A model generated the notes under the pieces. That model made no database searches. It saw only the letters and a program-made list of their open reading frames with translations, and was not told the DNA's origin. A program made the position numbers and the translations under genes. From positions 1-64,000 of the forward strand of contig JACMLX010000136.1 in assembly GCA_014379355.1 (NCBI GenBank): a stretch of DNA of 64,000 nucleotides, read 5' to 3'. Shown in pieces: positions 10,361 to 39,415 of the stretch; within the stretch, counting starts at the first letter, position 1; each line of letters starts with the position of its first letter. Source of the stretch: Gemmatimonadaceae bacterium. Its GTDB lineage: Bacteria; Gemmatimonadota; Gemmatimonadetes; Gemmatimonadales; Gemmatimonadaceae.

Positions 10361-11209
10361 TCATTCGAGGAACATGCGCACAGTCTTCGCAGACGTGGGA
10401 TGCGAGTACGTGCGATGCACATGGTATCGAGGCTCTTCGTACAGCACTTCGATTTCAGCCGGGACATCGGCGAACAACTCCGCAAAATCTCGATGCACGA
10501 AGAACGCGTTTGATCCCGTGAGCGGGTTACAGCACACCAACTTGTAGTTGTGATTCGAGAATAGGCTCGCCAGGGCGCTCAGCGACGCCCCCATGTAGTC
10601 ATCGCCATTCCAAGTGTGCGTTGGGTCATATCGGACGCTGAATTGGATCGGCGGCGGGAACTTTGCGTTGTATTCCGCGATGAAGAGTTTCGGCGCCACG
10701 CCGCTCGCAAGGAGCGCTCCAATCAGGTGGAGGTCGTTGCCATCCAGATCGAGCGAGATCACATCGGCAGCAGCCGCGCCAAGTTCACTCAGACCGTGCC
10801 TCATCGACTGCACAATGTTGTCGAGGCTCAGCCATTGGCGGAAATACCTGAAGCGGCTTCCGGCTGGAATCTCGAATGAAAGTGCTTCGCCGCCCACCCA
10901 GAAACCCGTCCATCCGAGCGAAGCCAGCACAAGTGTGTTGTTCTCCAGACCATTGCCGACGCCGAATTCAGCAAACGTCCCTGAAGAAGCGATGCCGAGC
11001 CGACGAACGATTTCGAGGGTGATGCCGTCTTCATCTCCTTGGGAAAACACCTTGCGCGCGTGTCTGCTCAGTGGATTGACATGCGACGCAATTCGACGAC
11101 GTTGCACGTCTTCAAGAACGACATCGTGCAGGTGATTGAGTGTCGCGTTCGGGCTGTGGAAGCTCTGTATGAGTGCGTAGAGTTTCTTGCGGATCTTGCT
11201 CGGGGACAT
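10361..11209 (-). CDS. FkbM-type methyltransferase-like protein
   Basis: FAEFGVGNGLENNTLVLASLGWTGFWVGGE, DVISLDLDGNDLHLI; start chosen at MSPSKIRKK. Confidence 0.68.
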   Translation of the reverse strand: MSPSKIRKKLYALIQSFHSPNATLNHLHDVVLEDVQRRRIASHVNPLSRHARKVFSQGDEDGITLEIVRRLGIASSGTFAEFGVGNGLENNTLVLASLGWTGFWVGGEALSFEIPAGSRFRYFRQWLSLDNIVQSMRHGLSELGAAAADVISLDLDGNDLHLIGALLASGVAPKLFIAEYNAKFPPPIQFSVRYDPTHTWNGDDYMGASLSALASLFSNHNYKLVCCNPLTGSNAFFVHRDFAELFADVPAEIEVLYEEPRYHVHRTYSHPTSAKTVRMFLE

Positions 11210-11609
11210 TCCGGAACGCCTCAGGTGTGGGCAATAGAACGGGGAGTTGGCTCGGCAGGACGACGAAGCCCTTCCAGAATGTTGCGCTCTCGCGGCATGT
11301 ACTTCACGACCCGACGGCGCTATGTCAAGATAGCAGGTATTCCGGCACACCCTCGCTATTCGGAGGTCCGTACCGGCGAAAGGTGCCACGACAACTGGTG
11401 CAGTCCTCAGGATAGCCAAATGCACTCGACGATGGCGGCAGAGCAGCAGGTATATCGGCTCGTCGAAGTGAAGCCTGTAGATTTGGTCGTTGGCGCTCGC
11501 TCTTCTTTACACGCCGTGTCTGGAATTTCGTTTGCCGGCTTTCCCGATTGACTCCAAGGCGCGTCAACTGCGCAGCTCAATATCTCGCGACCTCCCAGGC
11601 GTTCTTGGC

Positions 11610-12590
11610 ATGGCGATTTCAATCAGACTCACTTTTTCGCGCGCCGTTGATTTGCTTGGCGCGCCATTGACCATCATGGCGAGCGCGTGGCTGTCGGCCG
11701 TCCGTCGGCTGGGTGGAAAGGATACACCAATCAGCAGGCGCATCTTCGCAGCGGTAGGCGTGTTCCCGATCCGTCGGCACTACTACGAACCGTTCTTCGA
11801 TCCGCGCGATCTCGTGCATGACCTCAGCCAGGATCGAATCCTTCCAGGCATCGATATGAATGTCGCTGGCCAGCTGGCGTTGCTCGGGTCCTTTCATCCG
11901 CATCACGAATTGCTGGAAATTCCGGAGACACCGGTGCCGAAGCCAGGCTACTACTACGGCAACGATTCATTTGTGGCCGGTGACGCAGAGTACCTTTACC
12001 ACGTGATTCGCCATTTCAAACCCAAGCGATTCATCGAAATCGGCAGTGGCATGTCGACTTTGCTCGTCCGACAGGCGATTGCAGATGAGCAGGCGATCGA
12101 TTCGGCGTATGCGTGTGAGCATACGTGCATTGAACCATACGAAAGCCCGTGGCTGAGCCTGATCGATGTCAACCTCATCCGTCAACGAGTGGAGCAGGTC
12201 GAGTTGGAGACGTTCGCTTCGCTCGACGCCGGCGACGTCCTCTTCATCGACTCGTCGCATGTGGTCCGACCGCAGGGTGACGTGGTATTCGAATACCTCG
12301 AGATCCTACCAAGACTGCGCCCGGGCGTGCTTGTGCATGTGCACGATATCTTCACACCTCGCGACTATCCTGCCGCGTGGGTCCATGAGCGGATGTATCT
12401 CTGGACGGAGCAGTATCTCGTTGAGGCCTTTCTCACGTGCAATCCGCACTTCGAGATCATCGGCGCACTCAACTTCCTCGTGCGTCATCATCGCGCAGCG
12501 CTTCATACCGTGTGTCCAGTTCTTGCGCGGCGTCCCACCAGTGAAGATCCGGGCTCGCTCTGGTTGCGTGTCAGGAACACGTCGAGGTAG
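11610..12590 (+). CDS. Class I SAM-dependent methyltransferase-like protein
   Basis: FIEIGSGMSTLLVRQAI, DVLFIDSSHVVRPQGDV, VHVHDIFTPRDYP. Confidence 0.7.
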   Translation: MAISIRLTFSRAVDLLGAPLTIMASAWLSAVRRLGGKDTPISRRIFAAVGVFPIRRHYYEPFFDPRDLVHDLSQDRILPGIDMNVAGQLALLGSFHPHHELLEIPETPVPKPGYYYGNDSFVAGDAEYLYHVIRHFKPKRFIEIGSGMSTLLVRQAIADEQAIDSAYACEHTCIEPYESPWLSLIDVNLIRQRVEQVELETFASLDAGDVLFIDSSHVVRPQGDVVFEYLEILPRLRPGVLVHVHDIFTPRDYPAAWVHERMYLWTEQYLVEAFLTCNPHFEIIGALNFLVRHHRAALHTVCPVLARRPTSEDPGSLWLRVRNTSR

Positions 12591-12597
12591 GTCCGGC

Positions 12598-13287
12598 TCA
12601 GCGCTGCGTGAGCAAGCGCCGTTCGGCCTCCGCCCAGTCCGCGGGCTCGTCGATACTCAGCGAATCGTCGTCGGTGAGCAGGAGAGGGGCGCAGCGTGTA
12701 CCATAGAAACTTTTCGCGCCAAGAACAATTGCGGTCCTTGTGAGAAAGATCGTACCGTCTCGTCGATACGCGGATGGGACGTCCTGGCGACGTGTGTACG
12801 ACCCGCCATCTGGAAGGAAGTATTCGAGGCGGTTTTGAGGGGAGATGCGCATGACGTAGTGGGGGCAGAGATGCTGCGGCACCGGGACAACGGAACAGAC
12901 GGCATCCCAGTCTCCGAGCATGTCAATCGCGGTGGTGATGTGCGCCGGACGTCTGAGGGGCGACGTCGGCTGCAGGAGCAGCAACGCGTCGTACTGCTCC
13001 CCGAACGCCGCGAGGGTTTCGAGAGCGTGCACGGCGACAGCGATCATGGCACTCGCGTCCTGCGCAAGTTCGGCCGGTCGCATGAATGGCACGTCGATAC
13101 CTGCCCGCCTGCCAGCCTCCGCGATGCGCGCGTCATCGGTGGACAGAATCACGCGTGCGAGGCTTTGAGACTCTATTGCAGTCTCGTGCGCGCGCTGGAT
13201 GAGGGGCTTCCCCAGCATTGGCCGCAGATTCTTGTCTTCAACAGACTTCGAGCCACCACGAGCCGGTATGAGCCCGAGCACCCTCAT
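12598..13287 (-). CDS. neuA: Acylneuraminate cytidylyltransferase family (CMP-nonulosonate synthetase)
   Basis: MRVLGLIPARGGSKSVEDKNLRPMLGKPLIQRA, LLLLQPTSPLR, DGTIFLTR. Confidence 0.88.
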   Translation of the reverse strand: MRVLGLIPARGGSKSVEDKNLRPMLGKPLIQRAHETAIESQSLARVILSTDDARIAEAGRRAGIDVPFMRPAELAQDASAMIAVAVHALETLAAFGEQYDALLLLQPTSPLRRPAHITTAIDMLGDWDAVCSVVPVPQHLCPHYVMRISPQNRLEYFLPDGGSYTRRQDVPSAYRRDGTIFLTRTAIVLGAKSFYGTRCAPLLLTDDDSLSIDEPADWAEAERRLLTQR

Positions 13288-14225
13288 GGCGCGCCAGGAT
13301 GATGACGCATCGAATTCTGGACCTGCCGAATCTCTCGGAAGAATTCGCGCACCGTCGATGGTGCGGGCCGCGCGTCCGGTCGCGGGTCGCACGGTCGACA
13401 AACGAACGCGACGTGCAGATGGTCCGCACTGTACGAGCGATGCACAGGTTCAAAGCCGACGCGTGCGAGGTAGGCTTCCATTGTATCCTCAGTCAGCGAA
13501 TACGGATGGTCGATCTTGACAGCCGCCTCAACGGAACCCTGGCGCAAGTAGGCCGCCCGGAAGTCGACGATATCGACGACAAAAATACCCTCCGGCTCGA
13601 TGATCTCCCGAAGCTTGTGCAGCGTCGCTGACACATCCAGCAGATGATCGATCGTCTGAAACATGCCGACGAATTCGAAGCGCCGTCCGGCAGGCTCCCA
13701 CTCCTCGGCCAGACCAGTAATCGTTTCGATGTCGAGCGCATCCGCCTCCGCGATTTCAGCCGGTGCCGGATCGAGCACGGTGGCCTTCAGATCAAATCGG
13801 GATCGTAGAAGTGCTGCAACAATCCCAGTCGAGCCGCCGACATCAAGAAACCGTCCGCCTCGGACCCGCGCCATGAATGGCGCGAGCATGTCGGCCATGT
13901 CCATCGCATAGAGGTGCTGCTCGGCCTGGACGGTGGTCGCGTCGATGAGTCGGCCGTGATAGGCGCTGACGAGCGGCCGGTAGACGTGTCGGTAAAACTC
14001 GTCATACGAAGCTGAAGTCATTCGAGGATTCAGCACCACAAGACTGCACGCCGAACAGGCAGTTGTGCTCGCCCGATACCCGTACCGATCGACATGCGTC
14101 AGTACGGTCCAGATAGCAGCACCGCATAAGTTGCAGGTCGTCAGGTACTCCTTGGCGCGCGCGTCATAGTCGTATCTGATCCCGTGAATTCGGTCCGGAC
14201 GCGATGGCGTGGTCGACGTAGTCAT
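13284..14225 (-). CDS. Class I SAM methyltransferase with N-terminal Zn-ribbon-like CxxC pairs
   Basis: CNLCG...CSACS; FLDVGGSTGIVAALLRSRFDLKATVLDP. Confidence 0.78.
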   Translation of the reverse strand: MTTSTTPSRPDRIHGIRYDYDARAKEYLTTCNLCGAAIWTVLTHVDRYGYRASTTACSACSLVVLNPRMTSASYDEFYRHVYRPLVSAYHGRLIDATTVQAEQHLYAMDMADMLAPFMARVRGGRFLDVGGSTGIVAALLRSRFDLKATVLDPAPAEIAEADALDIETITGLAEEWEPAGRRFEFVGMFQTIDHLLDVSATLHKLREIIEPEGIFVVDIVDFRAAYLRQGSVEAAVKIDHPYSLTEDTMEAYLARVGFEPVHRSYSADHLHVAFVCRPCDPRPDARPAPSTVREFFREIRQVQNSMRHHPGAP

Positions 14226-14281
14226 GCGTAGGTCACGATGGGTGATGGGATGATGACATTCGATTTCAGCCGCGCTGGCGA

Positions 14282-15778
14282 CTACACGCGTTTCGCACAT
14301 CGTAGAGCGACATTTAGAATTCGCGCGGAAGCCTGGCCGTCGATTCGATAGCACATGCGCTCGACAAGTCGCGATCGCTCTTCACGGAGGTGCTCGGGGT
14401 GGTCGAGAGCGTACGCCATGCCTGCCATCAATGCGTCGATGTCACGCGGTCGCGAAATGGCACCGATCTCCTGCGCCTCGATCTGGTGGGTGTATGCGAG
14501 TTGCTCCCTCGCAAGTGACTGCATGGCCGCGTCGACGCCCGGACGGTTCACAGGCGTGATGAGAAAACTCGGGCGGTCGAAGATGCACGACTCGATCAGT
14601 GCGGTTGTGGCGCAACTGGCAAAGACGACGTCGGCTGCGGAGAGAAGGGAGGCCTTCCACAACTCCCTCGCCATGGCGGGCGAGCGAGGACCGGCTTGCG
14701 GTTCGACATGGCTTACAATCTCGTTCGGCAAATTCGGATCGAGTATCACGCTGTGGCCATCGACAAACTGATGATAGAGACGCGCATTCTCGTGCGGGTG
14801 GACCCGTATGACCAGGATCGCGTTGTGCTGAAACAGCACGGTTCGCTGCCGCATCGCATCGATGAACGCCGTGAGATCGTGACGTTCAGCGTCATGGAAA
14901 CCTGCTGCAGTCAGGTACGTGATGATCACCCTGCCGGGTGCCACTCCCAGCTGTTCCTCGACTTCGGCGCGAGAATACATGTCCGCCGTTCGTGCGTACG
15001 TGTCGAATTGTGCGGCACCGGTGATGTGAACGCGAGACGGATCCACCCGATGATATCGCAACGCGTGCGACACCATCGGTGCATTCCACACGCAGAACTC
15101 CTGTGGCTGGACCTTCATCGCACCGCGACCGGTAAGATTGTCCCAACTTGATACTACTGCAAGCGTCGGCACTTGCAGTCCGTTGGCGGCGCGAAGCAGC
15201 GTCTGGTCCTCGTGCCGGAATCCGGGGCTGGGCACAAGTACGAGATCCGGATTGTGTTCTGCAAAGAGCTGCGCGTAGATGCGGTCGGCGCGCCGTTGCA
15301 GTAGGCGCTCGAGCAAGCCGATGACCCGCGAACGTCGCGACGTCGGTCCCCGGCGAATTGGGAACATCAGGCGCAGAAGTGTGTGCGTCACGTCCGGGGC
15401 GCGCACGAGAGCCATGTATTTGCTCAGAGTGCCCAGCGCGGAAAATTCCATGTCCATCAGCTTCATGTGCAGCCGCGCCGCAGCGCCGAGGTCGGGTCGG
15501 ATGCACTCATGCACCATCGGTGAGGACGCGAACTCCGAGGCGAGCAGCTTGCGACTCTCTTCCGTCGGCGAGATTGTGACGACCTTCCACCCGCGCGCCA
15601 CAAATCCGTCCGCGACGCCGCTTGCGAGCAAATCTCGAGCTACCAGTATATGCGGAACAGAGAGGAGTACGGTGCCAGATTCGTAAGGTGTGTCGGTGAG
15701 CGATGGCGCTGCTCCTTCGATCTGCACGCTTCCATCATACAGTCCCGCCTGCTGCAGAACTTCATCAGGCTCTGTCAT
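14282..15778 (-). CDS. Uncharacterised GT-B-like glycosyl/glycerophosphotransferase
   Basis: DLVLVPSPGFRHEDQTLLRAANGLQVPTLAVVSSWDNLTGRG, HITGAAQFD, IRVHPHEN, SAADVVFASCATTALIESCIFDRPSFLI; resembles capsule GT-B/CDP-glycerol glycerophosphotransferase folds. Confidence 0.55.
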   Translation of the reverse strand: MTEPDEVLQQAGLYDGSVQIEGAAPSLTDTPYESGTVLLSVPHILVARDLLASGVADGFVARGWKVVTISPTEESRKLLASEFASSPMVHECIRPDLGAAARLHMKLMDMEFSALGTLSKYMALVRAPDVTHTLLRLMFPIRRGPTSRRSRVIGLLERLLQRRADRIYAQLFAEHNPDLVLVPSPGFRHEDQTLLRAANGLQVPTLAVVSSWDNLTGRGAMKVQPQEFCVWNAPMVSHALRYHRVDPSRVHITGAAQFDTYARTADMYSRAEVEEQLGVAPGRVIITYLTAAGFHDAERHDLTAFIDAMRQRTVLFQHNAILVIRVHPHENARLYHQFVDGHSVILDPNLPNEIVSHVEPQAGPRSPAMARELWKASLLSAADVVFASCATTALIESCIFDRPSFLITPVNRPGVDAAMQSLAREQLAYTHQIEAQEIGAISRPRDIDALMAGMAYALDHPEHLREERSRLVERMCYRIDGQASARILNVALRCAKRV

Positions 15779-15996
15779 TCTCTCCGGTCCGATTGTTGAA
15801 CATACAACGTCTATGAACGGCTTCGGCTGGAGTACGCGAGCCGTCGGACACCTGCGCGCGTCCATCACAGTCCATCTTCGACTTCCGCTGCGGAAACGTA
15901 AGGTTTCCTCACTGTCGACACCAGCCCGCACCCGTCAGTGTTGCGTGGCATGTGAAGCAGCGCGTCGCACTGCACGCGACTGGCGGGCGGCGATTC

Positions 15997-17106
15997 TCAT
16001 CGCGGTATCGCGGAGCGCATCGTATCCTCGAATGCCTTGGCGACATCCGCCCACGTCGGCAGAAACTTGCGAAGCGCGGTTTCGCGCTCCCTCGTCAGAC
16101 GTGACGCATCGCCGCGGCCGTCCAAAAGCTCCACAATCGCCGTAGCGGCCGCCTCCGCGTTTCCGGCGCTGAAGAAAGTTGCCGCGCCGCCACAGGCCCA
16201 CGTGGCGTATGGCACGTCGGGCGCAATGATCCGGCGGCCCGCCTTCAAGGCTTCGTAAAGCGTCATGCCATAGCTTTCGGCGTCCGACAGATGCAGCAGT
16301 CCGTCGACCGCCGACAGCGCAGCACCTGCGTCCTCCTGGCTCAGCCTGCCGAGATTGACCACAAGATCGCCGGTTTCCGCCATGACGGTGCTTAGGAGTG
16401 CTGCAGTCTGTGGGCACTCGGGCAGAGTGATGTAGATCACCACATCCTTTGACCTTCCCACATCCCGGAGTGCGCGTGCGATGCCAGGAAGCAAATCGTG
16501 CCGTTTGTGCGGGTAGTACGCCGCGAGATAGAGCAGCCGGAATCTGTCGCTCCCTGACGCATCGTCGAGCGCGGGCGGAATACGACCGAGGGAGGTGGCT
16601 GCCGGCGACGGATGAGACACGACGTGAATGCGCGCCGCATCCACGTCGTGCTCGCGACTAAGCGCTGCGCGCATGATCGGAGTCTGCACAATCACACTCG
16701 TCGCGCGTGCGACAGCGCGTGCGAACACTTCCCTTTGCACACGCGCCGACACGCCCTCCTCATCGCGCAGCAACAGCGCGTTGTGCACGAACAGCACACT
16801 TGGCGTCGTTCCCCGGATCGCGCCGATATCACCAAGCGTCAGGATGGCGTCAACATCGAATTGGCGAGCTGTCGCTGCCAAGCGCCAACCGACATCGAGG
16901 AGACGCTGCGCCCGATTTGACCATCCAGCGCGCCGAGCGCCGACGACACGAATCCGTTCGCGCCAGTCCAGCGCCGATAGCACACCTTCCGCGACAAGGC
17001 CGTGGCAGCGCAGCGCTCGACGCATCAACAGCTCTGGAATCAGCGAGCTGGCGACTCCCAGAGGCCCGGCGGCTGTCACGTTCACGGCGTCGATGAGGAC
17101 GCGCAT
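15997..17106 (-). CDS. Glycosyltransferase family 1/4-like
   Basis: VLFVHNALLLRDEEG, FRLLYLAAYYPHKRHDLL, GLLHLSDAESYGMTLYEALKAGRRIIAPDVPY. Confidence 0.82.
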   Translation of the reverse strand: MRVLIDAVNVTAAGPLGVASSLIPELLMRRALRCHGLVAEGVLSALDWRERIRVVGARRAGWSNRAQRLLDVGWRLAATARQFDVDAILTLGDIGAIRGTTPSVLFVHNALLLRDEEGVSARVQREVFARAVARATSVIVQTPIMRAALSREHDVDAARIHVVSHPSPAATSLGRIPPALDDASGSDRFRLLYLAAYYPHKRHDLLPGIARALRDVGRSKDVVIYITLPECPQTAALLSTVMAETGDLVVNLGRLSQEDAGAALSAVDGLLHLSDAESYGMTLYEALKAGRRIIAPDVPYATWACGGAATFFSAGNAEAAATAIVELLDGRGDASRLTRERETALRKFLPTWADVAKAFEDTMRSAIPR

Positions 17107-18426
17107 CTAGTCGTCGCCCGGAGAATCGCTCGCGCGCGCGAGCGCCCAGAATACCCAGAACTGCATCATGACGAACGAGTCGATGCTCGCCACGAGAAAA
17201 GCAATCGCGGCAACACTGGCCGCTCTCGTTGACGCCGTTCCACGGACGGCGGAACGCCCAAGCGATGCCACAAGCAGTGCCAGCGTCGCAAGGCCTATGA
17301 TCCCGGTTTCGGCCGCCAGCCGCACCACAAGGTTGAATGCATTGGGCAGTGTGGACGAGGCGTTCTGCTGCTCAGTGACGACCGTCAGAAGCTTTTCCAC
17401 ATCACTTACAGCGAGATCGCCCCCGTCGTTGTAGGCGAACCCAAAGGCGCCGAAACCGACTCCGAGCACGGGATGTGCCCTGAACTCCGACAGGCCGATG
17501 GCAGCTGCCGCAGTGCGTTCCAGCACCGAGACGTCGACTGTCGCGAGGTTGTCGGCCGCAAAGATCGGGGAGATGGCCAGTGTAAGCGGAGCGACAAACG
17601 TCGCAACGAAACTGGTCGTGATCAGCAAGCGCAGCGATCGCCGACGTGCTAGGGCGATTGCGATCAGCGCAAAAATTCCAGTTAATGTTCCTGTGCGACT
17701 CGACACCAGAATGGCGACGAGCAGCAACAGCACGCCGGCGGAGCACGCGCAGAGTGAGTTCAAGGACCATGGCCGCGCCCGAAAAATAGGCAGCGCCGTC
17801 ATGAATGCGCCTGTAGGTGCCGCAAAGGCGGAGAAAAAAGACGGTTCGGTAAAGAATCCGTACACTCGGGGAAGCACAGACTCTGCATCACGAACCGCCA
17901 CCGCCGGGAGTGCGCCGGCAGCGCTCACGAACGAAAGGTTGTTGTGCCAGAGTTGGAGATGCGCGCCGAACGCGTGTGCCAGAAGGAAAAAACACGATGT
18001 GAGCAGAGTGAAGACGCCACCAGACACAACGCCGGCAATGAGCCACCGCTTCACGTTTACCGACGAGTCGCATGCGAGAGAAAGCGCAATCGACGCGCCA
18101 AGCATGATGAGCACCGTCGAAAGCTGACGCGACCACTTGAGCAGGGGAGCATCCGCCCCGATTCCGCGTATGCCGAGCAATGGAATCACCGAGAGCGCGA
18201 ATACAAGTGCAAGCCAAACCAATGGGTCGCCAAAAAGTCGTCGCGGAATCATCGGTCGCGATGCAAACGTCAGCACGCCCATCGCACACATCGCGAGAAT
18301 TGAAATTTGCAGCCCGAGTCCGGTATTGGCGAAGACCAGATCCGGTATTGCGGGGCCAAAGCCGATGACGAACGCCAAGCCTCGCCACATAGGATCGTCA
18401 GGCTGGTCAGCGGATGGCGGAGTCAT
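17107..18426 (-). CDS. O-antigen polymerase/ligase-like membrane protein
   Basis: Multi-TM; LVSSRTGTLTGIFALIAIAL, FRAHPVLGVGFGAFGFAY. Confidence 0.78.
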   Translation of the reverse strand: MTPPSADQPDDPMWRGLAFVIGFGPAIPDLVFANTGLGLQISILAMCAMGVLTFASRPMIPRRLFGDPLVWLALVFALSVIPLLGIRGIGADAPLLKWSRQLSTVLIMLGASIALSLACDSSVNVKRWLIAGVVSGGVFTLLTSCFFLLAHAFGAHLQLWHNNLSFVSAAGALPAVAVRDAESVLPRVYGFFTEPSFFSAFAAPTGAFMTALPIFRARPWSLNSLCACSAGVLLLLVAILVSSRTGTLTGIFALIAIALARRRSLRLLITTSFVATFVAPLTLAISPIFAADNLATVDVSVLERTAAAAIGLSEFRAHPVLGVGFGAFGFAYNDGGDLAVSDVEKLLTVVTEQQNASSTLPNAFNLVVRLAAETGIIGLATLALLVASLGRSAVRGTASTRAASVAAIAFLVASIDSFVMMQFWVFWALARASDSPGDD

Positions 18427-19510
18427 ATTCCGTCCGAATGGCCTCGGCAGTGTGACGCCATGAGAAGGCGCGGGCACGCGCGATCCCCGCACTGCGCAGC
18501 GTTTGCCCTGCCTCCAGCATGTGTTCGAAACCGCGCGCGATGCTCGTCACTAGCATGGGATCGACGAGCACGGCCGCGTCGCCGGCAACCTCCGCCGTGG
18601 CACCGTGGTGACTGGTCATGACAGGTGCGCCGCTTGCCATCGCCTCGAGAATCGGGATGCCGAATCCCTCGTACACGGCCGGGAACGCGAGTCCTGCGGT
18701 CGACCGGTACAGGTCGCGAAGTCTTGAACGATCGACGAACCCCTCGAATGTGACATGCTCGACTCGGCTGCCGAGCCGCTGCTGGAACTTCGAGTCGACG
18801 TGCCCTGTCACGCGGAGCGTCGCGTCACGGTGATTTGAGCTGTGCCGGCGCCATTCCGAGAACGCGGAGATCACCCGCACAAGATTCTTTCTGGGATTCG
18901 CGCCACCGACGGCGAGGAAGAACGGTGGTTCGGTATCCATCAGCTCGTCGCCTGGAGAAAAGAAATCCGAATAACCGCTCCATACAACCGCAATGCGGCT
19001 CGATGGAATTCCGAGCAGTGCCATGAGATCGTCAGCGGTCGTCACGGAGATCGCGAGGACCTTGTGCGCCTCGGCGATGCGCGTCCGGGCATGCCAGGTG
19101 TTCAGCAGGCGCGTTGGCGTGTCGAACAGTTCTGGATACCTGAGAAATCCCAGATCGTATGCGGTGAGCATGCGCACCATCCTCCGCGGGGTACCGAACG
19201 GCAGAAAGCCATCGACTCCGTGATAAATGGACGACGGCGTGCGCGCGGCAAGCGTGCCAGCGCGCACCATGTCGAATGCGAGCTTGGCAAACTTGTTTGC
19301 CGGCGCGCGGGTCGTCGTGTTGCTTGGTCGTACCGCGCCCGGCACATCGGCGTCGTCAGGAACGCCGATGCCGTGGATCGCCACACCGCCAATTGCCGAC
19401 AGGCCAGAGACCACGCCGGAAATGTATGCTTCGATTCCACTACGCACGGGAAAGATGCGGCGGAGGTTCATCGCCACCTGAAGAAGCGGCTCCGAGCGCC
19501 AACTCATCAT
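18407..19510 (-). CDS. Glycosyltransferase family 1/4
   Basis: FFLAVGGANPRKNLVRVISAF, VTFEGFVDRSRLRDLYRSTAGLAFPAVYEGFGIPILEAMASGAPVMTS. Confidence 0.87.
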   Translation of the reverse strand: MMSWRSEPLLQVAMNLRRIFPVRSGIEAYISGVVSGLSAIGGVAIHGIGVPDDADVPGAVRPSNTTTRAPANKFAKLAFDMVRAGTLAARTPSSIYHGVDGFLPFGTPRRMVRMLTAYDLGFLRYPELFDTPTRLLNTWHARTRIAEAHKVLAISVTTADDLMALLGIPSSRIAVVWSGYSDFFSPGDELMDTEPPFFLAVGGANPRKNLVRVISAFSEWRRHSSNHRDATLRVTGHVDSKFQQRLGSRVEHVTFEGFVDRSRLRDLYRSTAGLAFPAVYEGFGIPILEAMASGAPVMTSHHGATAEVAGDAAVLVDPMLVTSIARGFEHMLEAGQTLRSAGIARARAFSWRHTAEAIRTEYDSAIR

Positions 19511-19583
19511 CGTGAGCGATCCGTCGCAGATTGTCGAGATCCCCGCAGCGACACGCAACCGACGTGCGCTGATGACAGGCGGT

Positions 19584-20927
19584 TCATACTCGCACCGCGT
19601 CGTCCAGTGGCGCTGCTCCACCGGGAGGAGTCAGCCTGATGACGATACTCGACGCCAGCGCGCTGAATGCATAGCCGCACAGAGTCGCGTACACAGCACC
19701 GGCCACGCCTCGCGATGGAATGAGCAGTGCATAGAGGGACACCGAGACAAGGGCCGAGCACACTGTAATGACAGCAAAACGCCGCACTTGCCCTGCTGCG
19801 ACGAACCGCATCAGCAATCCACCTGAAAGAACCATCAGTGGCGGAAGCACGCTCAGGCTCCGCGTCGTCGCAATTGCATCGGAATACTGGCTGGATGACA
19901 CTAAATAGATGATGGGCCGCGCCATGAGAAACAGCACGGCACTCGCCGCCACCTGAATCACAAGTTGCACGCGCAGCCATCGCCACCACGGCGGCGGTCC
20001 GTCCGTTCGCACGTCGCGGATGATAAGGGGGTACACCAGCGAGCTCGCCAGCCCGCCTGCCGCACCGTAACACAGCAGCTGGATGTTGTAGGCGATGCTG
20101 TACGATGCAAGATCCGCGGCTGACAGGATGCCGTAGACGAAGAAGCGGTCCCCGACTCGAAGCAGTTGATTGGCCAGCGCCGGCAGGAAAAAGTGACGCG
20201 CATAGCGAAGCATCTGCAGTACGTGAGTACGCCCGTGAGCGAGACCGCTGCGCCACTGTTGCCTGCCAAACGCCGCCTGCATCAGCACGGCGACGGCGAC
20301 AACATTGCTTCCCGCAAGAACCACCATCGCGTCGCGAATGGTCGGGTGGGGCAGCGCCAGCAGCAATGCGATCTGCGCGACGGATCGAGCAAACTTTGCC
20401 CCTTCGCCAATCACGCCACGCCGCTGCAGGACGACATACCGCACCATCTCGACGATCATCAGTTCAGTCCAGACAATCGTTCCGACCAAGAGCGCATTCG
20501 CGCCCGCCAACCACACGAGCGACGATGGCACGAGCCGGGCAGGGATCAGGGCGGCACTCGTCGCGACGCCCAGCAGCAGTATCGATTCGAAGGTCAGTTG
20601 CGCACTGAGCCACGCAGACGGGTGCTTGACTGAGACCACGTGACGCTGGAGGTATCGATATGCTTCACACCCGAAGATGATCGTACCTAGCGCTGCTGTT
20701 GCCGTGACAAGATTGTACTCCCCGTAACCGTCACGCGTGAGGCGGGTGGTCAACAGCTTCAGTATCAGCAGGCGAGCTGCGATATCGAGCAACTGAAAGG
20801 CTCCAGCGCCCGCGAAGACTTTCAGAAACGCATAGGTTTCCCGCCGACTCTCCCGCGCTGCGGTATCCGGCTCGCCTTCTTGTGGAAGACGTGGCGGACG
20901 CGCAAAAGTGCGCAGTTGACGTCTCAC
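19584..20927 (-). CDS. Polysaccharide flippase (Wzx/MATE-like)
   Basis: About 12 predicted TM segments; VGDRFFVYGILSAADLASYSIAYNIQ. Confidence 0.75.
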   Translation of the reverse strand: MRRQLRTFARPPRLPQEGEPDTAARESRRETYAFLKVFAGAGAFQLLDIAARLLILKLLTTRLTRDGYGEYNLVTATAALGTIIFGCEAYRYLQRHVVSVKHPSAWLSAQLTFESILLLGVATSAALIPARLVPSSLVWLAGANALLVGTIVWTELMIVEMVRYVVLQRRGVIGEGAKFARSVAQIALLLALPHPTIRDAMVVLAGSNVVAVAVLMQAAFGRQQWRSGLAHGRTHVLQMLRYARHFFLPALANQLLRVGDRFFVYGILSAADLASYSIAYNIQLLCYGAAGGLASSLVYPLIIRDVRTDGPPPWWRWLRVQLVIQVAASAVLFLMARPIIYLVSSSQYSDAIATTRSLSVLPPLMVLSGGLLMRFVAAGQVRRFAVITVCSALVSVSLYALLIPSRGVAGAVYATLCGYAFSALASSIVIRLTPPGGAAPLDDAVRV

Positions 20928-20948
20928 GCGACGCTCACCGGGCGAGCG

Positions 20949-22115
20949 TCACTCGAAGTGCAGGAACTTCGTCACCGTCAACGGTGCATCCGCAAGCGCC
21001 TGGGCGATTCGAGGCCCGGCGAGCCCGTCACCATACAGCAAGTCTTGTGGATAGCGACCGGCGGCAACCTGCTGTCGAAGCGCGGCGGAAATGGAATACT
21101 GCGTGTAGTCTGCCGCCAGCACATTCACCGACTTGTCTCTGCCATGCTGTCGCGATCCGATGTCGACGACGGGCGTCCCAAGGTAACCGCATTCGCGTAC
21201 GCCGACTGAAGAATTGCCGACGAGCGCCTGCGCGTTGTAGAGGAGCTTGAGGAAGTCAATCGGCGCGAAGTTCTTGAAGAAGTGTACTGGGGCGTCAGGA
21301 TGCCGCTCGCGAAAGATGCGAAGCGCCTGCGAGGTGCTGTCGCTGCCGGCATCCACGTTCGGCCAGAACCAGAGCGCGGGAATTCCCGTTTCGAGCACCG
21401 CCGCGAGCGTTTCGTCCGTGTGCCTTCGTGCGAGCCGGTGCTCAGTGGTGACGGGATGTTGCAGCACGACGATGTATGGTTGTCGCACATCGACATACGG
21501 ACCGACGCCACCATATTTGCTGCACGGATCGAAGTCGAGCGCGGGGTCATCCATGATGCGTGACGCGAGGTCGATCGACGGACATCCAGTGACGAACACT
21601 TGGCGTGATCGCTCGCCAAGGCGCCTCACGCGATCGGCGGCCGGCTCGCATGACACGAGGTGAAGGTCGGCCAGCTTGGTCACGCTGTGACGCACCTTCT
21701 CGTCGATTGATCCCGTCACCTCACCGCCCTGAATGTGCGCGAGCGGGATATTCATGTACGCCGCGGTCAGGGCCGTCGCCATCGTCTCGAATCGATCGGC
21801 GACTGTGACCACGATGTCCGGGTTGAGATTCTCGAACGTCGTAGCGAGTTCGATCATCCCCAGGCCCGTGGTTTTTGCCATGGCGCCGACGTGCTCGCCC
21901 TCGATGACCATCCGGACCCGAGCGGCGATCGCGAAGCCGTCACGCTCGATCTCTTTCACCACCATGCCGTAGCGCTCGAGAAGCGCGGACGCTGCGACGA
22001 CGAGTATGAGCTCGAGGTCGGGGTGTGCGACAATGGCGTCCAGCGCGGTCTTGATTCGGCTGTAGCTCGGGCGTGCGGTGATGACAACGCACACACGGCG
22101 CTTAGCTCGCGACAT
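20949..22115 (-). CDS. neuC: UDP-N-acetylglucosamine 2-epimerase, hydrolysing (NeuC/LegG type)
   Basis: RRVCVVITARPSYSRIKTAL, IVVTVADRFETMATALTAAYMNIPLAHIQGGEVTGSIDEKVRHSVTKLADLHLVS; overlaps neuB end by 14 nt. Confidence 0.88.
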   Translation of the reverse strand: MSRAKRRVCVVITARPSYSRIKTALDAIVAHPDLELILVVAASALLERYGMVVKEIERDGFAIAARVRMVIEGEHVGAMAKTTGLGMIELATTFENLNPDIVVTVADRFETMATALTAAYMNIPLAHIQGGEVTGSIDEKVRHSVTKLADLHLVSCEPAADRVRRLGERSRQVFVTGCPSIDLASRIMDDPALDFDPCSKYGGVGPYVDVRQPYIVVLQHPVTTEHRLARRHTDETLAAVLETGIPALWFWPNVDAGSDSTSQALRIFRERHPDAPVHFFKNFAPIDFLKLLYNAQALVGNSSVGVRECGYLGTPVVDIGSRQHGRDKSVNVLAADYTQYSISAALRQQVAAGRYPQDLLYGDGLAGPRIAQALADAPLTVTKFLHFE

Positions 22116-23184
22116 CTGCGTCGTCGGCAATGTCCGTCCAGGCAAGTGGAGTCAGCGACGGCATATCGCGCCTGAGGCGACGCCCGATCACGAGGGCGCG
22201 TTGCATCGCTGGAATGCCCGAGCCCGGTTTTCGCGCAAGTAGATGCTCCGCCCGCAGCACAGTGTCGGCGGAAAGAGGCTCGCGCAGGACCAGCGATTTG
22301 CTGAAGATTGCGCGCGTCGTCAGGAGTTGCGCCGCCTTCGCATCCTTGTCGACGGCGTGCTGCTGCATTTGCTCGTTGAATCGAACACCCTCGACGAGCA
22401 ATCGCAATTCATCGGTCGTGACCGAGGCCGGGACATCGGGCCCGAACATGGCACGGTGAAAAGTCAGGTGTACCTCGACGATTTCCGCGCCCAATAGTGC
22501 GGCCGCAAGCGAGGGCCAGATCGTCCCAGAGTGATCGGAAAGTCCAACGGGGCACCCGAATCGCCTTGCCATCTCCTGCATCACGTTGAGGCCCACCGAC
22601 GCCGCACCGCACGGATACTCCGAGGTGCATTGCATCATCGCATAGGCCTCCCCCGAATCGACCAAACGGCTGGCGAGCTGTTCACATTCCGCCCACGAGC
22701 TCATGCCCGTTGACGCGGCGATCGGACGCGGTGCACGACTCATCGCATCGAACAACTCGTCACTGGTCACTTCACCCGACGGTACTTTCCAGAAGTCCAT
22801 GCCGATCTCCGCCAGCATTTCCACGGCTTCCACAGAGAATGCGGAGCTCGTGAACAACAGTCCCGCCGCACTCGCGTGATCTCGGAGGTCTCGCCAGTGG
22901 GAAGCGGAGAATTCCATTCGGCGCCAATACTCGTACCGCGTGTCGTCCTGCCGACTAAATTTGACCCGCCATGGCTCGTGCGAGGTGCTCTCCGCCGCCG
23001 CAATATGAGTCTGGAACTTAATGGCATCGGCGCCAGCGAGGGCGGCGGCATCGATAAAGGCGTGCGCTTGGCCCAGACTTCCGTCATGGCTTTGCGCGAC
23101 CTCTGCGACGATAAGACAATTGCCGTGCCGACCGGGATCGGGGGACGTCGCGACGACGGCGTCGCGAAACGATTGAGCTACCAA
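22102..23184 (-). CDS. neuB: N-acetylneuraminate/nonulosonate synthase
   Basis: LIVAEVAQSHDGSLGQAHAFIDAAALAGADAIKFQTH, WKVPSGEVTSDELFDAM, STGMSSW, CTSEYPC, GLSDHSG. Confidence 0.9.
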   Translation of the reverse strand: MVAQSFRDAVVATSPDPGRHGNCLIVAEVAQSHDGSLGQAHAFIDAAALAGADAIKFQTHIAAAESTSHEPWRVKFSRQDDTRYEYWRRMEFSASHWRDLRDHASAAGLLFTSSAFSVEAVEMLAEIGMDFWKVPSGEVTSDELFDAMSRAPRPIAASTGMSSWAECEQLASRLVDSGEAYAMMQCTSEYPCGAASVGLNVMQEMARRFGCPVGLSDHSGTIWPSLAAALLGAEIVEVHLTFHRAMFGPDVPASVTTDELRLLVEGVRFNEQMQQHAVDKDAKAAQLLTTRAIFSKSLVLREPLSADTVLRAEHLLARKPGSGIPAMQRALVIGRRLRRDMPSLTPLAWTDIADDADVAS

Positions 23185-23346: not shown

Positions 23347-24438
23347 ATGACGCCTGATTCAAGTCGCTCTGCAAACGCGACGGCCGCCACGCCATCAACT
23401 GCTTCCACATTCGTGCACCTGAGCGATGTGGTGCTCGTACTACTGCGCGCGCGCCGTGTCCTCGTGATTTGCGGAACTCTCGGATTCGTCGCAGGAATTG
23501 CATGGGCACGCGTGCCTCGAAGCACCTGGACTGCTGAGTCGACGTTCCTGCCCGAGCAGCGCCGCCAGTCACAGAACGCCCTGTCAGGCTTGGCGTCGCA
23601 GATCGGCATTTCCGTCGGCGGCCTGGATGGCTCACAGCCAGGAACTCTTTTTGTCGAGCTCGCTCGGTCCAGAGACGTCCTCGATTCGGTATCGCTGTCC
23701 GCACCCTTCGTGGAGCCAGGCAGTAGCGGGAAAGGAAAGTCGCTGACTGAATTGCTTCTTATCGATGACTCTGATCCCAAGCGCCGCCGCCTCGCGCTAC
23801 GCAATAGGCTTGCTGCGGCGATCGATGCGTCCACGAACGCCAAAACAGGTCTTGTGACGGTCCGGGTGTCGCTTCCGGCGGACTGGCTCGCGGCGGAAGT
23901 GGCAAATCGACTCGTCAGGCAGCTCGACAAAATCTCAGTCAGAATTCGGCAGCGCCGAGCAGAGTCCGAGAAGCTGTTCACAGACCAACGAATGGCTGAG
24001 TCGGCCAGAGAGCTGCAGTATTCTGAACAGCAGGTAACAAGTTTTCAAATCAGCAATCGCGATATCTCGACATCACCGGCGCGCCAGTTGGAACTGGAAC
24101 GGCTCAATCGAGATGCGTCGTTGCGACAACAACTCTTCGCCAGTCTAGCCAACGCGGCGCAGCAGGCGTCCTTGGAGCGTCTGCGCGACACTCCGGCGGT
24201 GACCATCGTTCAGCAGGCGGATCTTCCCCTGCAGCCGGATCGCCGCTATCTCGCTCGCAAAGTGCTGCTGGCAGCCTTCGGCGGTCTCGCGATAGCGATG
24301 CTGATGACGTTGCTACGCCACTTCTGGTTTGGAGAGCGCCGGGCCGCGTCCGCGCAGCTTGACGCAGAGTGGGAGCGATCACGATACGATCTGCTGCGAC
24401 CGTGGCGATTGTTCTTCGGCTCGAGCCGGGCCGCGTGA
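23347..24438 (+). CDS. Wzz-type chain-length determinant
   Basis: Two TM segments flanking a coiled coil; TAESTFLPEQRRQSQNALSGLASQIG; C-terminal LPLQPDRRYLARKVLLAAFGGLAIAM. Confidence 0.82.
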   Translation: MTPDSSRSANATAATPSTASTFVHLSDVVLVLLRARRVLVICGTLGFVAGIAWARVPRSTWTAESTFLPEQRRQSQNALSGLASQIGISVGGLDGSQPGTLFVELARSRDVLDSVSLSAPFVEPGSSGKGKSLTELLLIDDSDPKRRRLALRNRLAAAIDASTNAKTGLVTVRVSLPADWLAAEVANRLVRQLDKISVRIRQRRAESEKLFTDQRMAESARELQYSEQQVTSFQISNRDISTSPARQLELERLNRDASLRQQLFASLANAAQQASLERLRDTPAVTIVQQADLPLQPDRRYLARKVLLAAFGGLAIAMLMTLLRHFWFGERRAASAQLDAEWERSRYDLLRPWRLFFGSSRAA

Positions 24439-24445: not shown

Positions 24446-25204
24446 TCAAAAGCCGCTGAAGTACCTGAGCGCGCTTCGCACATGCCAGCGCAGGTGCACC
24501 GGATCGCGATGCGTCGCGCGTCGCGCGTCGTGAACGACCTCGAGAGATGGCACATACAAGACTCGCCAGCCATGTGTGCCGAGCCGGCGGCAAAGGTCCA
24601 CATCTTCAAAGTACATGAAGAATCGCTCATCGAAACCTCGCACCTGTCGCCAGGCTTCGTTTCGCACAACCAGAAACATTCCTGCGGCCCAGTCGACAAC
24701 TTGATTCGATTTCGTGGGAGCGTACTCCGAGCGCCAATCGCGGCTGAGATAGCGCCAGGCAAGCCTTTTTATCGTTGGAAAACGCCTCACGCTGTCTTGC
24801 AGCATGCCGGCGGAGTCAACGACTCGCGGCGCGACCGCCCCGACGCTCGCGTCCGTGAGCGCGTCCGCAAAGTCATCGAGGCGGAACGACCGCAATCGGA
24901 TATCCGGATTCACCACCACGAAGTGGCGTCCCCGTGAACGCTCGAATGCCGCATTGTGATTGGCGCCGAAACCAAGTCGTTCAGAATTCCGATGCAAGTG
25001 CACACGAAGCGATTTGCCCGCTGCTAAAAAGCCCTCGTCTTCCGGAATATTCAGAGTGATAAGAAACTCACATCTCCCTGCATTCGGACTCTCGAGCAAG
25101 CGCGAGAAGTCGTGAAGCAATGCACCGACGTGCGGTCCATGACCGTGACTCACGATGCTAATGCTGAATTCGCATCCGGCCGTCAAGGTTTTTGCCGTGG
25201 GCAT
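24446..25204 (-). CDS. Glycosyltransferase family 2 (rhamnosyltransferase-like)
   Basis: ISIVSHGHGPHV, NSERLGFGANHNAAFERSRGRHFVVVNPDI, GFDERFFMYFEDVDLCRRL. Confidence 0.87.
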   Translation of the reverse strand: MPTAKTLTAGCEFSISIVSHGHGPHVGALLHDFSRLLESPNAGRCEFLITLNIPEDEGFLAAGKSLRVHLHRNSERLGFGANHNAAFERSRGRHFVVVNPDIRLRSFRLDDFADALTDASVGAVAPRVVDSAGMLQDSVRRFPTIKRLAWRYLSRDWRSEYAPTKSNQVVDWAAGMFLVVRNEAWRQVRGFDERFFMYFEDVDLCRRLGTHGWRVLYVPSLEVVHDARRATHRDPVHLRWHVRSALRYFSGF

Positions 25205-25368: not shown

Positions 25369-27039
25369 GTGAAACCGTCCTTTCCACGGCAACTGATCAC
25401 GCTACTGCTCACAGTGACGTCCAACCTGGTTCACGCGCAAGCGACGCCTGTCCGGCGAAGTTGCGCCAATGGTGTGCTGAGTGTCGAGCTGCCCGGTGGC
25501 CAGCTGGACGAGAACCGACGAGCTCTTGGTATTCGCGCAAAACAGGGCTGGGCACTTTGGCGCGGTGCAGCCGACGGGGCGAGAGGTCGTATGCTGGCCG
25601 ACAGCAGTCGCGTGCCGCTGCGCCTCGCCATCGTGCTGCCGGAAGTACTTGCAACACATCACCAATCCTTTCCCATGCCTGCCAACGATGGGCCGTTGTG
25701 GGCCGGCCGTGGTCTCGCGTACAGCGTGACGGGTGGCGTTGCCCTGTGCGGACGCCAGGGTCGCTGGGGTGCAATCATAGCACCGACGTACTGGTACGCT
25801 GAAAACGCGAATTTCGACTTGCCGGACAACCCGCAGTTCGTTCCGCCGTACCGTGGAGGCTACTCTCCGTTTGCGTCTCGGTACTACTACATGCCACGAT
25901 CGCTCGACGCGCCAAGGAGATTCGGGCCAACAGCGCTCAGCGGGTTCGATCCAGGCGTCATTACGGTCTTCGCAAGAAATGCACGCGTTGACGCGGGCTT
26001 CACAACTGAGCCGATGTGGTGGGGCCCAGGGCAATACAACGCTTTGTTGCTGAGCACGCAGGCAGCCGGACTGCCTCGCGCGTACGTTCGCACGGCTCGC
26101 CCGCTTCGCCTCGGCGGTGAACTCGACATTTCGTACTTCATCGGCGGAATGTCGTACTCCCGGTTCTTCTTCGAGAACAATCCGATCGATACGACGCGAT
26201 CGATCGCTGGCCTTTCTGTCGTATGGCGACCGAAATTCGAACCTGGCCTCAGTCTCGGTGCGGCACGACTCGTCATCGCGCCGATCGCAGGAAAGGCATA
26301 TCTGAAACAGCTCTTCGATCCGATCATTCCAGTTGGCACACCGAATGCTGTTTCACGCGCCGATTCAACACAGTTTCCGGGCCGCGACCAGTTGTTTTCC
26401 GTATTTGCAAACTGGCGGCTTCCTGACGACGGAACGGAAATCTGGTTCGAGTGGGCTCGTGCCGAATTGCCGGAGAATCTTCGAGCCTTTTTTCAGGCGC
26501 CGAACCATACGCAAGCCGTCACTCTCGGACTCCAGCGAGTGAGCGCGCCGTTTCACCGAGACTGGACGTGGCGCGTTGGTGCCGAATACTCGCAGACAAC
26601 GCAGAGTTCGACGTACCGCGAGCGACCGACCGGCTCGTGGTACACCAGCCGCGCCGTTCAGGCGGGTTTCTCACAGAAAGGCCAGGTCCTCGGCGCCATG
26701 ATCGGACCCGGCAGCGTCACCCAACGCCTGAACCTCGACTTCGCCGGTCCCCGCGCCTCGCTCGGAATATTCGCTTATCGCATCAAATGGGACGACGACT
26801 CCTTCTTCACCATCCCGCGCCCCAATGGCAACGGACTCTGCAAGCACGATGTCAGCCTTGCCCTTGGCGCGCGGGGCACGGCACGCACACCGGCCGGCTG
26901 GTTCGAGGCAACGCTCACCTCGCAGAACCGCCTCAACCTCTACTGGCAGGCCCTCGGATTGTGCTTCGAGAACGAGGAGCTCCAGATCGACAAGCGCAAC
27001 CTGTCACTCGAATTCCGCTTCCACCCGCGTATTCGATGA
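25369..27039 (+). CDS. Capsule assembly Wzi-like outer-membrane protein
   Basis: GTG start with signal peptide ending VHAQ; MPANDGPLWAGRGLAYSVTGG, MWWGPGQYNALLLS, GLPRAYVRTARP. Confidence 0.75.
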   Translation: MKPSFPRQLITLLLTVTSNLVHAQATPVRRSCANGVLSVELPGGQLDENRRALGIRAKQGWALWRGAADGARGRMLADSSRVPLRLAIVLPEVLATHHQSFPMPANDGPLWAGRGLAYSVTGGVALCGRQGRWGAIIAPTYWYAENANFDLPDNPQFVPPYRGGYSPFASRYYYMPRSLDAPRRFGPTALSGFDPGVITVFARNARVDAGFTTEPMWWGPGQYNALLLSTQAAGLPRAYVRTARPLRLGGELDISYFIGGMSYSRFFFENNPIDTTRSIAGLSVVWRPKFEPGLSLGAARLVIAPIAGKAYLKQLFDPIIPVGTPNAVSRADSTQFPGRDQLFSVFANWRLPDDGTEIWFEWARAELPENLRAFFQAPNHTQAVTLGLQRVSAPFHRDWTWRVGAEYSQTTQSSTYRERPTGSWYTSRAVQAGFSQKGQVLGAMIGPGSVTQRLNLDFAGPRASLGIFAYRIKWDDDSFFTIPRPNGNGLCKHDVSLALGARGTARTPAGWFEATLTSQNRLNLYWQALGLCFENEELQIDKRNLSLEFRFHPRIR

Positions 27040-27192: not shown

Positions 27193-28749
27193 GTGACGTC
27201 CCCCACGCCCCCGTCTCCACGGTCGCGGCCGCGACGCCGCTCGGGCGATGCCGCACCGCTGCGGCGCGTGGCCGGCGATTCGAAATATTCCGACATCGCG
27301 CTCCCAGAGATCCTGCACGCGCGCGCGCCACATGCCGTATGGCGACATCTCTGGCGTACGGTGCTTCGCGTGCTGGTGCTCGTCGGCGTCGATCTGCTGA
27401 CCCTCGAAGTCCTGCGCATCATTCTCTCGGCCGCACGCGACCACGCATGGTTCGGCGCGCGGATCGCCACCACCCTCGACACGATTGTGCCGCAAGGCGC
27501 CGTGCCCGCGGTCCCGCTGCAGGCGGCGGTACTGCTTGGACTGACGATTTGCGGCGCGTACGTCGGCGGAGCGCGCAAACGACACGTGCGCAGCGTCGCG
27601 ATGGGTGCCGTCCTCGGCGTACTCGTCGTCACCTGGACGGCACTCTTCACCGAGCCGGAACCGAGTCGGATGCTCGGCGTCGCCTTCATCTGTCTCGCGA
27701 TCGCCGCCACGCTCGTGCCGGTTCGTGCGACACTGGACATCGTCGTCGATCGGATCCGGCCGCGCGCCGCGTTTGCGTTGCGCGCAATTCTCGTGGCACC
27801 GAGCCGCGACCTGCGCGCCGGCCGCACGAACCCGGCATTTGCTGATCCGAGTGAGTTCCGCTTCGTCGGTGAGGTGGACACCACGCACATCGAATCCGTC
27901 CAGGGACCGCTCGGCCCCACCAGCGAGATGATGCGTCTGATCGACGAACATCGCGCCGACACCGTCGTGCTGTTCGGACATCTCACCGATCCCGTCGCCG
28001 AGCGACTCGCCCGCGTCGCCGACGCGGCCGGATGCAACGTCGTGTGTCTGCCGCGCACCATGTCGCTGCACGGCTTCGAGCCGCAGCTCGTGTTTCATCA
28101 CGGCGAGCCGCTGATGCGACTGGTGCGTGTCGGCGAGCGTGGTCGGCAGCTGGTCGTGAAGCGTGCAACCGACATCGGGATTTCGTTGCCGCTGCTGTTC
28201 CTGCTGGCGCCGCTGTTTCTGCTGGTGGCCATCGCGGTGCGCATCACGTCACGCGGACCGGCACTGTTCCGGCAGGTGCGCGTGGGGCAGGGTGGTCGCC
28301 GTTTCCACATGTGGAAATTCCGCTCGATGATCGCCGATGCCGAAGAGCAGCAGGATGAACTTCGCGCCCGCAACGTGTACGGCGAGGAACCGCTCTTCAA
28401 GATTGCGCGCGATCCGCGGATCACGCGATTCGGGCGATTCCTGCGGCGGACCAGTCTGGACGAACTGCCGCAGTTCTGGAATGTGCTGCGCGGCGACATG
28501 TCGCTCGTCGGTCCGCGACCGCCGTTGCCGGATGAAGTAGCGCGCTACACGGAGCGTCACCTGGTGCGACTCGATGTCCGGCCTGGGCTCACGGGTCCAT
28601 GGCAGGTGTCGGGCCGCAACCGCATCGTGCATTTCGAGGACGTCGTGCAGATGGAGGCCGAATACATCGCAGAGTGGTCGTTTGCGCGGGATGCAGTGAT
28701 TCTGGCGCGCACAGTCCCGGCTGTCCTGCGTATGGATGGCGCGCTATGA
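27193..28749 (+). CDS. Polyprenyl-phosphate sugar phosphotransferase (WbaP/WcaJ-like)
   Basis: N-terminal TM region and C-terminal bacterial sugar transferase domain KRATDIGISLPLLFLLAPLFLLVAIAV, WKFRSM, RRTSLDELPQFWNVLRGDMSLVGPRPPLP, RPGLTGPWQVSGRN. Confidence 0.92.
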   Translation: MTSPTPPSPRSRPRRRSGDAAPLRRVAGDSKYSDIALPEILHARAPHAVWRHLWRTVLRVLVLVGVDLLTLEVLRIILSAARDHAWFGARIATTLDTIVPQGAVPAVPLQAAVLLGLTICGAYVGGARKRHVRSVAMGAVLGVLVVTWTALFTEPEPSRMLGVAFICLAIAATLVPVRATLDIVVDRIRPRAAFALRAILVAPSRDLRAGRTNPAFADPSEFRFVGEVDTTHIESVQGPLGPTSEMMRLIDEHRADTVVLFGHLTDPVAERLARVADAAGCNVVCLPRTMSLHGFEPQLVFHHGEPLMRLVRVGERGRQLVVKRATDIGISLPLLFLLAPLFLLVAIAVRITSRGPALFRQVRVGQGGRRFHMWKFRSMIADAEEQQDELRARNVYGEEPLFKIARDPRITRFGRFLRRTSLDELPQFWNVLRGDMSLVGPRPPLPDEVARYTERHLVRLDVRPGLTGPWQVSGRNRIVHFEDVVQMEAEYIAEWSFARDAVILARTVPAVLRMDGAL

Positions 28750-29651: not shown

Positions 29652-29705
29652 GTCTCATGAACAGTCACTGCCGCGATGTGCGCAGCGGCGAACCGATCGT
29701 GCCGA

Positions 29706-30040: not shown

Positions 30041-30131
30041 GTTACCACGTTGTACGCCGATCGTGCTTGTCGGCCTTCGGCATTCACTCTCATTCCAGTT
30101 GCATGGCCACAGATCAGGGCAGGTCGTCACC

Positions 30132-39104: not shown

Positions 39105-39117
39105 CTGACTGAGTCAG
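39105..39117. promoter_or_regulatory. Perfect 13-bp dyad, candidate operator
   Basis: CTGACT-G-AGTCAG in the 375-bp gap upstream of 39165. Confidence 0.3.
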
Positions 39118-39164
39118 ATCCTTGGCATGCAACGTCCCTTCTATAGCGGGCAGGAGTTACGGCA

Positions 39165-39374: not shown

Positions 39375-39415
39375 GCGTGCTTCCCGGTCTCTCTCGTTTC
39401 GAATAGGTGTAGTCC

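Follow-up and report, generated by a model that had tools for sequence, protein, structure and literature searches.

What does a polysaccharide locus make when homologues of the sialic acid enzymes NeuB, NeuC and NeuA lie among its Wzx/Wzy polymer genes? We addressed this question in a metagenome-assembled genome of a Gemmatimonadaceae bacterium (4.82 Mb, 293 contigs, 89.6% complete), using the first 64,000 nucleotides, hereafter the window, of the 69.7-kb contig JACMLX010000136.1; statements on the whole genome come from profile searches of the assembly. Predicting a nonulosonic acid product relies on where NeuB falls in a phylogeny that has three reference groups, the neuraminic (Neu), legionaminic (Leg) and pseudaminic (Pse) types. 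A preliminary description of the window had reported NeuB, NeuC and NeuA in one minus-strand string with Wzx, Wzy, glycosyltransferases (GTs) and methyltransferases, and had favored an N-acetylneuraminic acid (Neu5Ac)-like product from UDP-N-acetylglucosamine (UDP-GlcNAc). Our analysis indicates that the locus likely both makes a Neu-type nonulosonic acid and uses it in a Wzx/Wzy-dependent exopolysaccharide or capsule.

The string (12598-23184) runs on the minus strand from NeuB through NeuC, Wzx, a GT4 enzyme, Wzy, a second GT4 enzyme, GT549 and a methyltransferase (MT) to NeuA. All nine open reading frames (ORFs) are intact and closely packed, and neighbors overlap or nearly touch; NeuB and NeuC overlap by 14 bp, and the MT stop and the NeuA start share an ATGA overlap. 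Because about 8 kb of polymer genes splits NeuC from NeuA, this is not a compact NeuBCA operon. The string is surrounded by genes for a Wzz-like protein, Wzi-like proteins and two initiating transferases, and the parts of a Wzx/Wzy polysaccharide locus (Wzx, Wzy, a chain-length protein and an initiating transferase) were all found. Intact ORFs and profile matches bear out the string as first described, except that only one methyltransferase lies inside it; a second, on the plus strand, stands just outside.

We then asked what each sugar enzyme resembles. The nearest solved relative of NeuC was human GNE (226 bits, vs 163 for Acinetobacter baumannii LegG). In a 91-row tree the window NeuC clade joined GNE (support 99/92), a placement that is unsure because the GNE branch, like some others in this tree, is long; LegG of A. 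baumannii was placed elsewhere, and so were the NeuCs linked to LegB in the same bacterial family. The best PDB relatives of NeuA were all CMP-NeuAc synthetases (1eyr, 100 bits). NeuB, numbered after the Neisseria meningitidis enzyme, retains all catalytic barrel residues (E25, H30, K53, Q55, K129, Y186, S213, H215, E234, H236, D247), and shares His57 and Arg85 with it; LegB-linked synthases carry Phe/Trp and Ala/Lys at these positions. It scored 173 bits against the PseI model (cut-off 340). In a 98-row tree, in which bootstrap support was not fully settled, it fell into a separate 65-row clade (100/99) that spans many phyla and stands apart from PseI, SpsE and LegB-linked synthases. Leg-type labels in this tree were assigned by searching 39 relatives for LegB, and the classical Neu type was represented by N. 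meningitidis and one genome of the same family as ours (G013). The NeuB phylogeny thus grouped the window enzyme with neither Leg nor Pse synthases.

In order to find branch genes of the other pathways, we searched the assembly with curated models. LegB (best 130 bits, cut-off 475), LegC (168, cut-off 420), PseB (41, cut-off 407.75) and PseC (217, cut-off 423.5) all stayed below threshold in this 89.6% complete assembly, and a genome search for a UDP-GlcNAc 4,6-dehydratase of the Polysacc_synt_2 type gave only partial matches to other short-chain dehydrogenases/reductases (SDRs). The genome holds one NeuB. Several candidates were rejected: a second PF03102 match (contig C186) is a 3-deoxy-D-arabino-heptulosonate 7-phosphate (DAHP) synthase, an SDR suspected as a WbpM/PglF-like dehydratase (29676-31205) is GalE, and DegT aminotransferases on contigs C91 and C102, considered as LegC or PseC, are under every curated cut-off and lie on other contigs. 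The window SDRs are Gmd, an epimerase-type SDR and GalE, in agreement with the earlier remark that the string has no neighboring dehydratase or aminotransferase of the Leg/Pse pathways.

Taken together, a Neu-type sugar from UDP-GlcNAc via N-acetylmannosamine (ManNAc) is our best inference. Several points weigh against it. NeuB scores below the TIGR03569 Neu5Ac-synthase cut-off (273.3 vs 399.65 bits) and lies outside the clade of the characterized Neu5Ac synthase of N. meningitidis. In its SAF domain Lys replaces Arg314, as in 62/62 rows of the clade alignment, and the substrate loop has its own signature, with R79, Y82 and R85 in all 62 rows and Trp (58 rows) or Phe (4 rows) at position 83. 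Our search for a clade member with a known product found none, and the best NCBIfam model for NeuA was PseF, below its cut-off, so that family models do not fix the subtype. The absence of LegB, LegC, PseB and PseC is strong but not final, because about 10% of the genome is missing. Finally, one clade locus, on a SAR202 contig (L140, 4961-13689), carries Lys314-clade NeuB, NeuC and NeuA beside LegB and LegC (477 bits, over the cut-off of 420); it also has a GT549-like gene. Neu5Ac itself would be only the simplest guess, because of the TIGR03569 score, the position outside the N. meningitidis clade, and Lys314. Hence the proposed Neu5Ac-like product is upheld by the lack of Leg/Pse grouping and genes and weakened by these three properties of NeuB.

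Because of the score, Lys314 and the loop residues, the substrate of NeuB may differ from ManNAc. The clade could condense ManNAc in a modified form, or some other hexose derivative; Lys314 and the R-Y-W-R loop would then reflect that substrate, and the product would be a new nonulosonic acid. The clade-specific residues at 79, 82, 83 and 314 speak for this reading, positions 70-85 having been assigned to C4-C6 of the substrate in a published comparison (PMC7371886); NeuB also lies outside every reference group, and extra sugar enzymes recur in the clade (21/60 loci have a D-2-hydroxyacid dehydrogenase family gene, 14/60 have AsnB and some have the MT). However, a GNE-like NeuC would give ManNAc without any extra enzyme, His57 and Arg85 are Neu-like, and Arg314 of N. 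meningitidis NeuB, reported to be essential, tolerates this very change, R314K being active and R314A inactive in that report (PMC6795526). We therefore regard a non-Neu5Ac sugar of this kind as a serious but improbable alternative. Since the barrel residues are retained and R314K was reported active, we expect the Lys314 clade to be active.

A legionaminic-type pathway whose LegB, LegC and LegH were lost in assembly gaps appears quite unlikely. It would fit the incompleteness of the assembly, the L140 locus, the use of NeuC, NeuB and NeuA homologues in the Leg pathway as well, and the presence of two DegT aminotransferases elsewhere in the genome, both under the LegC and PseC cut-offs. Nevertheless, no LegB or PseB over cut-off was found in the genome, LegG-type NeuCs and Leg-type NeuBs lie in other clades, and 62 of the 63 clade loci lack LegB. 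That the locus is a silent remnant making no nonulosonic acid is hardly credible, since nine intact, tightly packed ORFs with conserved catalytic residues outweigh a patchy distribution (of ~394 further genomes sampled from the phylum, 3 have the NeuC clade) and a GC content below that of the surroundings.

Two further enzymes of the string look dedicated to the sugar pathway. The methyltransferase at 13284-14354 (METHYLTRANSFERASE) has four invariant Cys. Its predicted model (pLDDT 90.9) gave TDP-sugar 3-C-methyltransferases as the top 18 fold matches, and H181 and H225 of TcaB9 align with its invariant H194 and H240. In bacteria, other phyla included, it abuts a neu gene in 5/5 loci that hold it, twice in the order NeuB-NeuC-MT-NeuA; likewise it abuts neu genes in 5/5 phage cassettes (see below). 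Because the five bacterial loci had been selected for NeuC, we scanned viral contigs with the methyltransferase alone, which returned six contigs, four with the full NeuB-NeuC-MT-NeuA set and one with NeuA adjoining. Among 394 further genomes sampled from the phylum, only distant homologues occurred (25-29% identity), and none was found in the plasmids searched. The enzyme probably acts on the nonulosonic acid or its CMP form.

GT549 has a predicted GT-B fold (pLDDT 84, pTM 0.87). A fold search gave generic GT-B enzymes only, with no donor indicated; no Pfam or NCBIfam sialyltransferase family matched over cut-off, and the BFO_1060 family model reached 51 bits, far under its cut-off of 200. 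Nonulosonate transferases of Tannerella forsythia are reported to have HP and D/E-D/E-G motifs (PMC6388019); across 35 GT549 relatives we found the HP motif in 30 and an S/T-S/T motif in 31. Four of the five best relatives in the phylum share a contig with NeuB, within ~18 kb, and the contig of the fifth is too short for a decision. A GT549 relative co-occurred with the NeuC clade in 2/3 genomes vs 5/294 (p = 0.0014, on small counts), and in the cultured Rhizobium sp. WL3 one lies directly after NeuA. GT549 probably moves the nonulosonic acid onto the repeat unit.

We further found the same genes in viruses. A NeuC scan of the same viral collection (IMG/VR) gave five metagenomic phage contigs (L178, L179 = L187, L180 = L185, L181 and L188), all with NeuB, NeuC, the methyltransferase and NeuA. 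L179 has other genes between the methyltransferase and NeuA, and L188 is only 4.7 kb long, its NeuA running off the contig end. Where the flanks were long enough, the set lies between terminase (large subunit) and portal genes, with scaffold and coat genes also in the flanks. The phage NeuCs form one group (100/99) within the window NeuC clade. In the phage NeuBs every catalytic and clade-signature residue is retained, apart from Glu134, which is Gln in two of them, and yet all five stop before the SAF domain, with no remnant after the stop in three-frame translation. Isolate phage records (INPHARED) yielded no clade NeuB or NeuC. It is conceivable, and we say so tentatively, that a NeuB-NeuC-MT-NeuA cassette has spread between phyla and tailed phages and yields an undescribed methylated, possibly C-methylated, CMP-nonulosonic acid, with a NeuB subclass in phages that lacks the SAF domain thought catalytically essential.

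The best 80 NeuC relatives in named genomes cover Bacteroidota, Acidobacteriota, Chloroflexota, Pseudomonadota, Actinomycetota, Planctomycetota, archaea and others; because they were picked by similarity, frequencies among them are no population estimates. Across 63 clade loci, NeuB adjoins NeuC in 55; NeuA is present in 54, a GT549-like gene in 20 and LegB in one, L140. The D-2-hydroxyacid dehydrogenase family genes (e.g. L103, 6610-7662) and the asparagine-synthase-like AsnB genes counted above lie near NeuB/NeuC. Few genomes of the phylum have the NeuC clade: three others among 395 sampled ones, in addition to G097 of the same family, which has a compact B-C-A order (57/64/41% identity). 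Beside this set, G097 (L050, 1-6463) carries another NeuB and another NeuA, accompanied by genes for a DegT aminotransferase and a CBS-nucleotidyltransferase, which suggests a second, possibly Leg-like pathway. Four other Gemmatimonadaceae loci (L055, L057, L060, L065) hold synthase genes of a separate NeuB subgroup in open frames of 530-1170 codons, in which position 314 has a Ser-Pro motif and not Arg-Pro; the frames of L057 and L060 run on into further domains.

The features of the window are collected in Table 1. GC content is 0.59-0.62 at 6-27 kb and ~0.65 on both sides, which is in line with horizontal acquisition of the locus but no proof of it. Promoter and terminator scans gave sites no more numerous than in shuffles. 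A second polysaccharide cluster lies further along the window.

Table 1. Features of the window, with coordinates, strand and the matches on which they were assigned
Feature	Coordinates	Strand	Match or remark
Gmd (SDR)	4724-5722		503 bits vs cut-off 415
Epimerase-type SDR	5762-6772		
WecA/TagO-like initiating transferase	7002-8534	+	PF00953 125 bits
Unclassified protein, NeuA end of locus	10361-11425	-	
Methyltransf_24 protein, outside string at NeuA end	11490-12590	+	
NeuA-type CMP-nonulosonate cytidylyltransferase	12598-13287	-	CTP_transf_3 PF02348 70.7 bits
Zinc-ribbon and S-adenosylmethionine (SAM) methyltransferase	13284-14354	-	four invariant Cys; translationally coupled to NeuA
GT549, 549-residue GT-B enzyme, candidate CMP-nonulosonate transferase	14282-15931	-	PF04464 26.7 bits > 22.1
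GT4 glycosyltransferase	15997-17106	-	PF13439/PF13692
Wzy-type polymerase	17107-18492	-	Wzy_C PF04932 39.5 bits > 31.7
GT4 glycosyltransferase	18407-19621	-	PF00534 77 bits
Wzx-type flippase	19584-20927	-	Polysacc_synt_3 PF13440 35.2 bits > 23
NeuC, hydrolyzing UDP-GlcNAc 2-epimerase	20949-22115	-	TIGR03568 351.8 bits > cut-off 235.9 (NeuC_NnaA equivalog model, which may also accept LegG)
NeuB-type nonulosonic acid synthase, Lys314 clade	22102-23184	-	TIM barrel and SAF domain; PF03102 202 bits
Wzz-like chain-length protein (GNVR), divergent from NeuB	23347-24438	+	PF13807 33.3 bits
GT2 glycosyltransferase	24446-25204	-	PF13641
Wzi-like outer-membrane capsule assembly protein	25369-27039	+	PF14052 32.7 bits > 30.1
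Initiating sugar-phosphate transferase (Bac_transf)	27193-28749	+	PF02397 221 bits
GalE (SDR)	29676-31205		385 vs cut-off 262
Second polysaccharide cluster	37209-48815		own Wzy_C, Bac_transf, acyltransferase and GT4 genes

Known systems share parts of this arrangement. The CMP-Neu5Ac pathway of N. meningitidis has three homologous enzymes, with the NeuC family match over cut-off and the NeuB catalytic residues, His57 and Arg85 in common, whereas here NeuB belongs to a clade of its own, in which Lys replaces Arg314 and the loop differs, the set is interrupted by Wzx/Wzy polymer genes over 8 kb, and a methyltransferase is coupled to NeuA. In animals the pathway uses ManNAc-6-phosphate, and here no kinase is present; the likeness lies in GNE, sister to the window NeuC clade on its long, unsurely placed branch, and in human NANS, which by profile alignment likewise lacks Arg at the 314 column. 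An argument from Lys at that column of NANS was dropped, as the alignment puts Val there, with Lys one position earlier. The legionaminic pathway (LegBCHGIF) has homologous synthase, epimerase and cytidylyltransferase, but LegB and LegC are absent here, and epimerase and synthase belong to other clades. GT549 matches the BFO_1060 family of NCBIfam weakly, and its HP motif is of the type described in T. forsythia transferases (GtfS) and bacterial sialyltransferases, while the D/E-D/E-G motif was not identified in it. The methyltransferase resembles TcaB9, KijD1 and MtmC in fold and in two catalytic His positions, but lacks their C-terminal domain (313 vs ~410 residues), at 13-18% identity.

The preliminary description had considered sialic-acid-like sugars notable in an environmental bacterium. 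Presence alone is less so, because PMC8053191, citing Lewis 2009 and Kleikamp 2020, already describes nonulosonic acids as widespread in non-pathogenic environmental bacteria. Among texts with both terms, which by title or abstract were reviews or metagenome studies, we found no paper linking nonulosonic acids with Gemmatimonadota.

In summary, we propose that NeuC would hydrolyze UDP-GlcNAc to ManNAc, NeuB would condense ManNAc or a close derivative with phosphoenolpyruvate to a Neu5Ac-like acid, and NeuA would activate the acid with CTP. The NeuA-coupled methyltransferase would methylate the nonulosonic acid or its CMP form, GT549 would transfer the activated acid to the repeat unit, and Wzx and Wzy would flip and polymerize it. 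The sequence itself displays the genes, their intact catalytic residues, an assembly free of Leg/Pse branch genes, the clades to which the enzymes belong and the conserved linkages; the substrate, product, methylation site and transferase role we infer.

Among the references used, the NeuB clade forms a fourth, many-phylum group without a characterized member, and because it includes loci in cultured strains, among them Rhizobium sp. WL3, Flavilitoribacter nigricans DSM 23189 and Pedobacter sp. Leaf176, the product prediction is directly testable. The phage cassettes raise the question why a virus carries a CMP-nonulosonate pathway among its head genes, and their SAF-less NeuBs offer a test of the supposed need for Arg314 and the domain that carries it. 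That the methyltransferase recurs points to a modified sugar. Collectively, our results suggest that a NeuB/NeuC clade without a characterized member makes a Neu-type sugar, probably modified by a dedicated methyltransferase.

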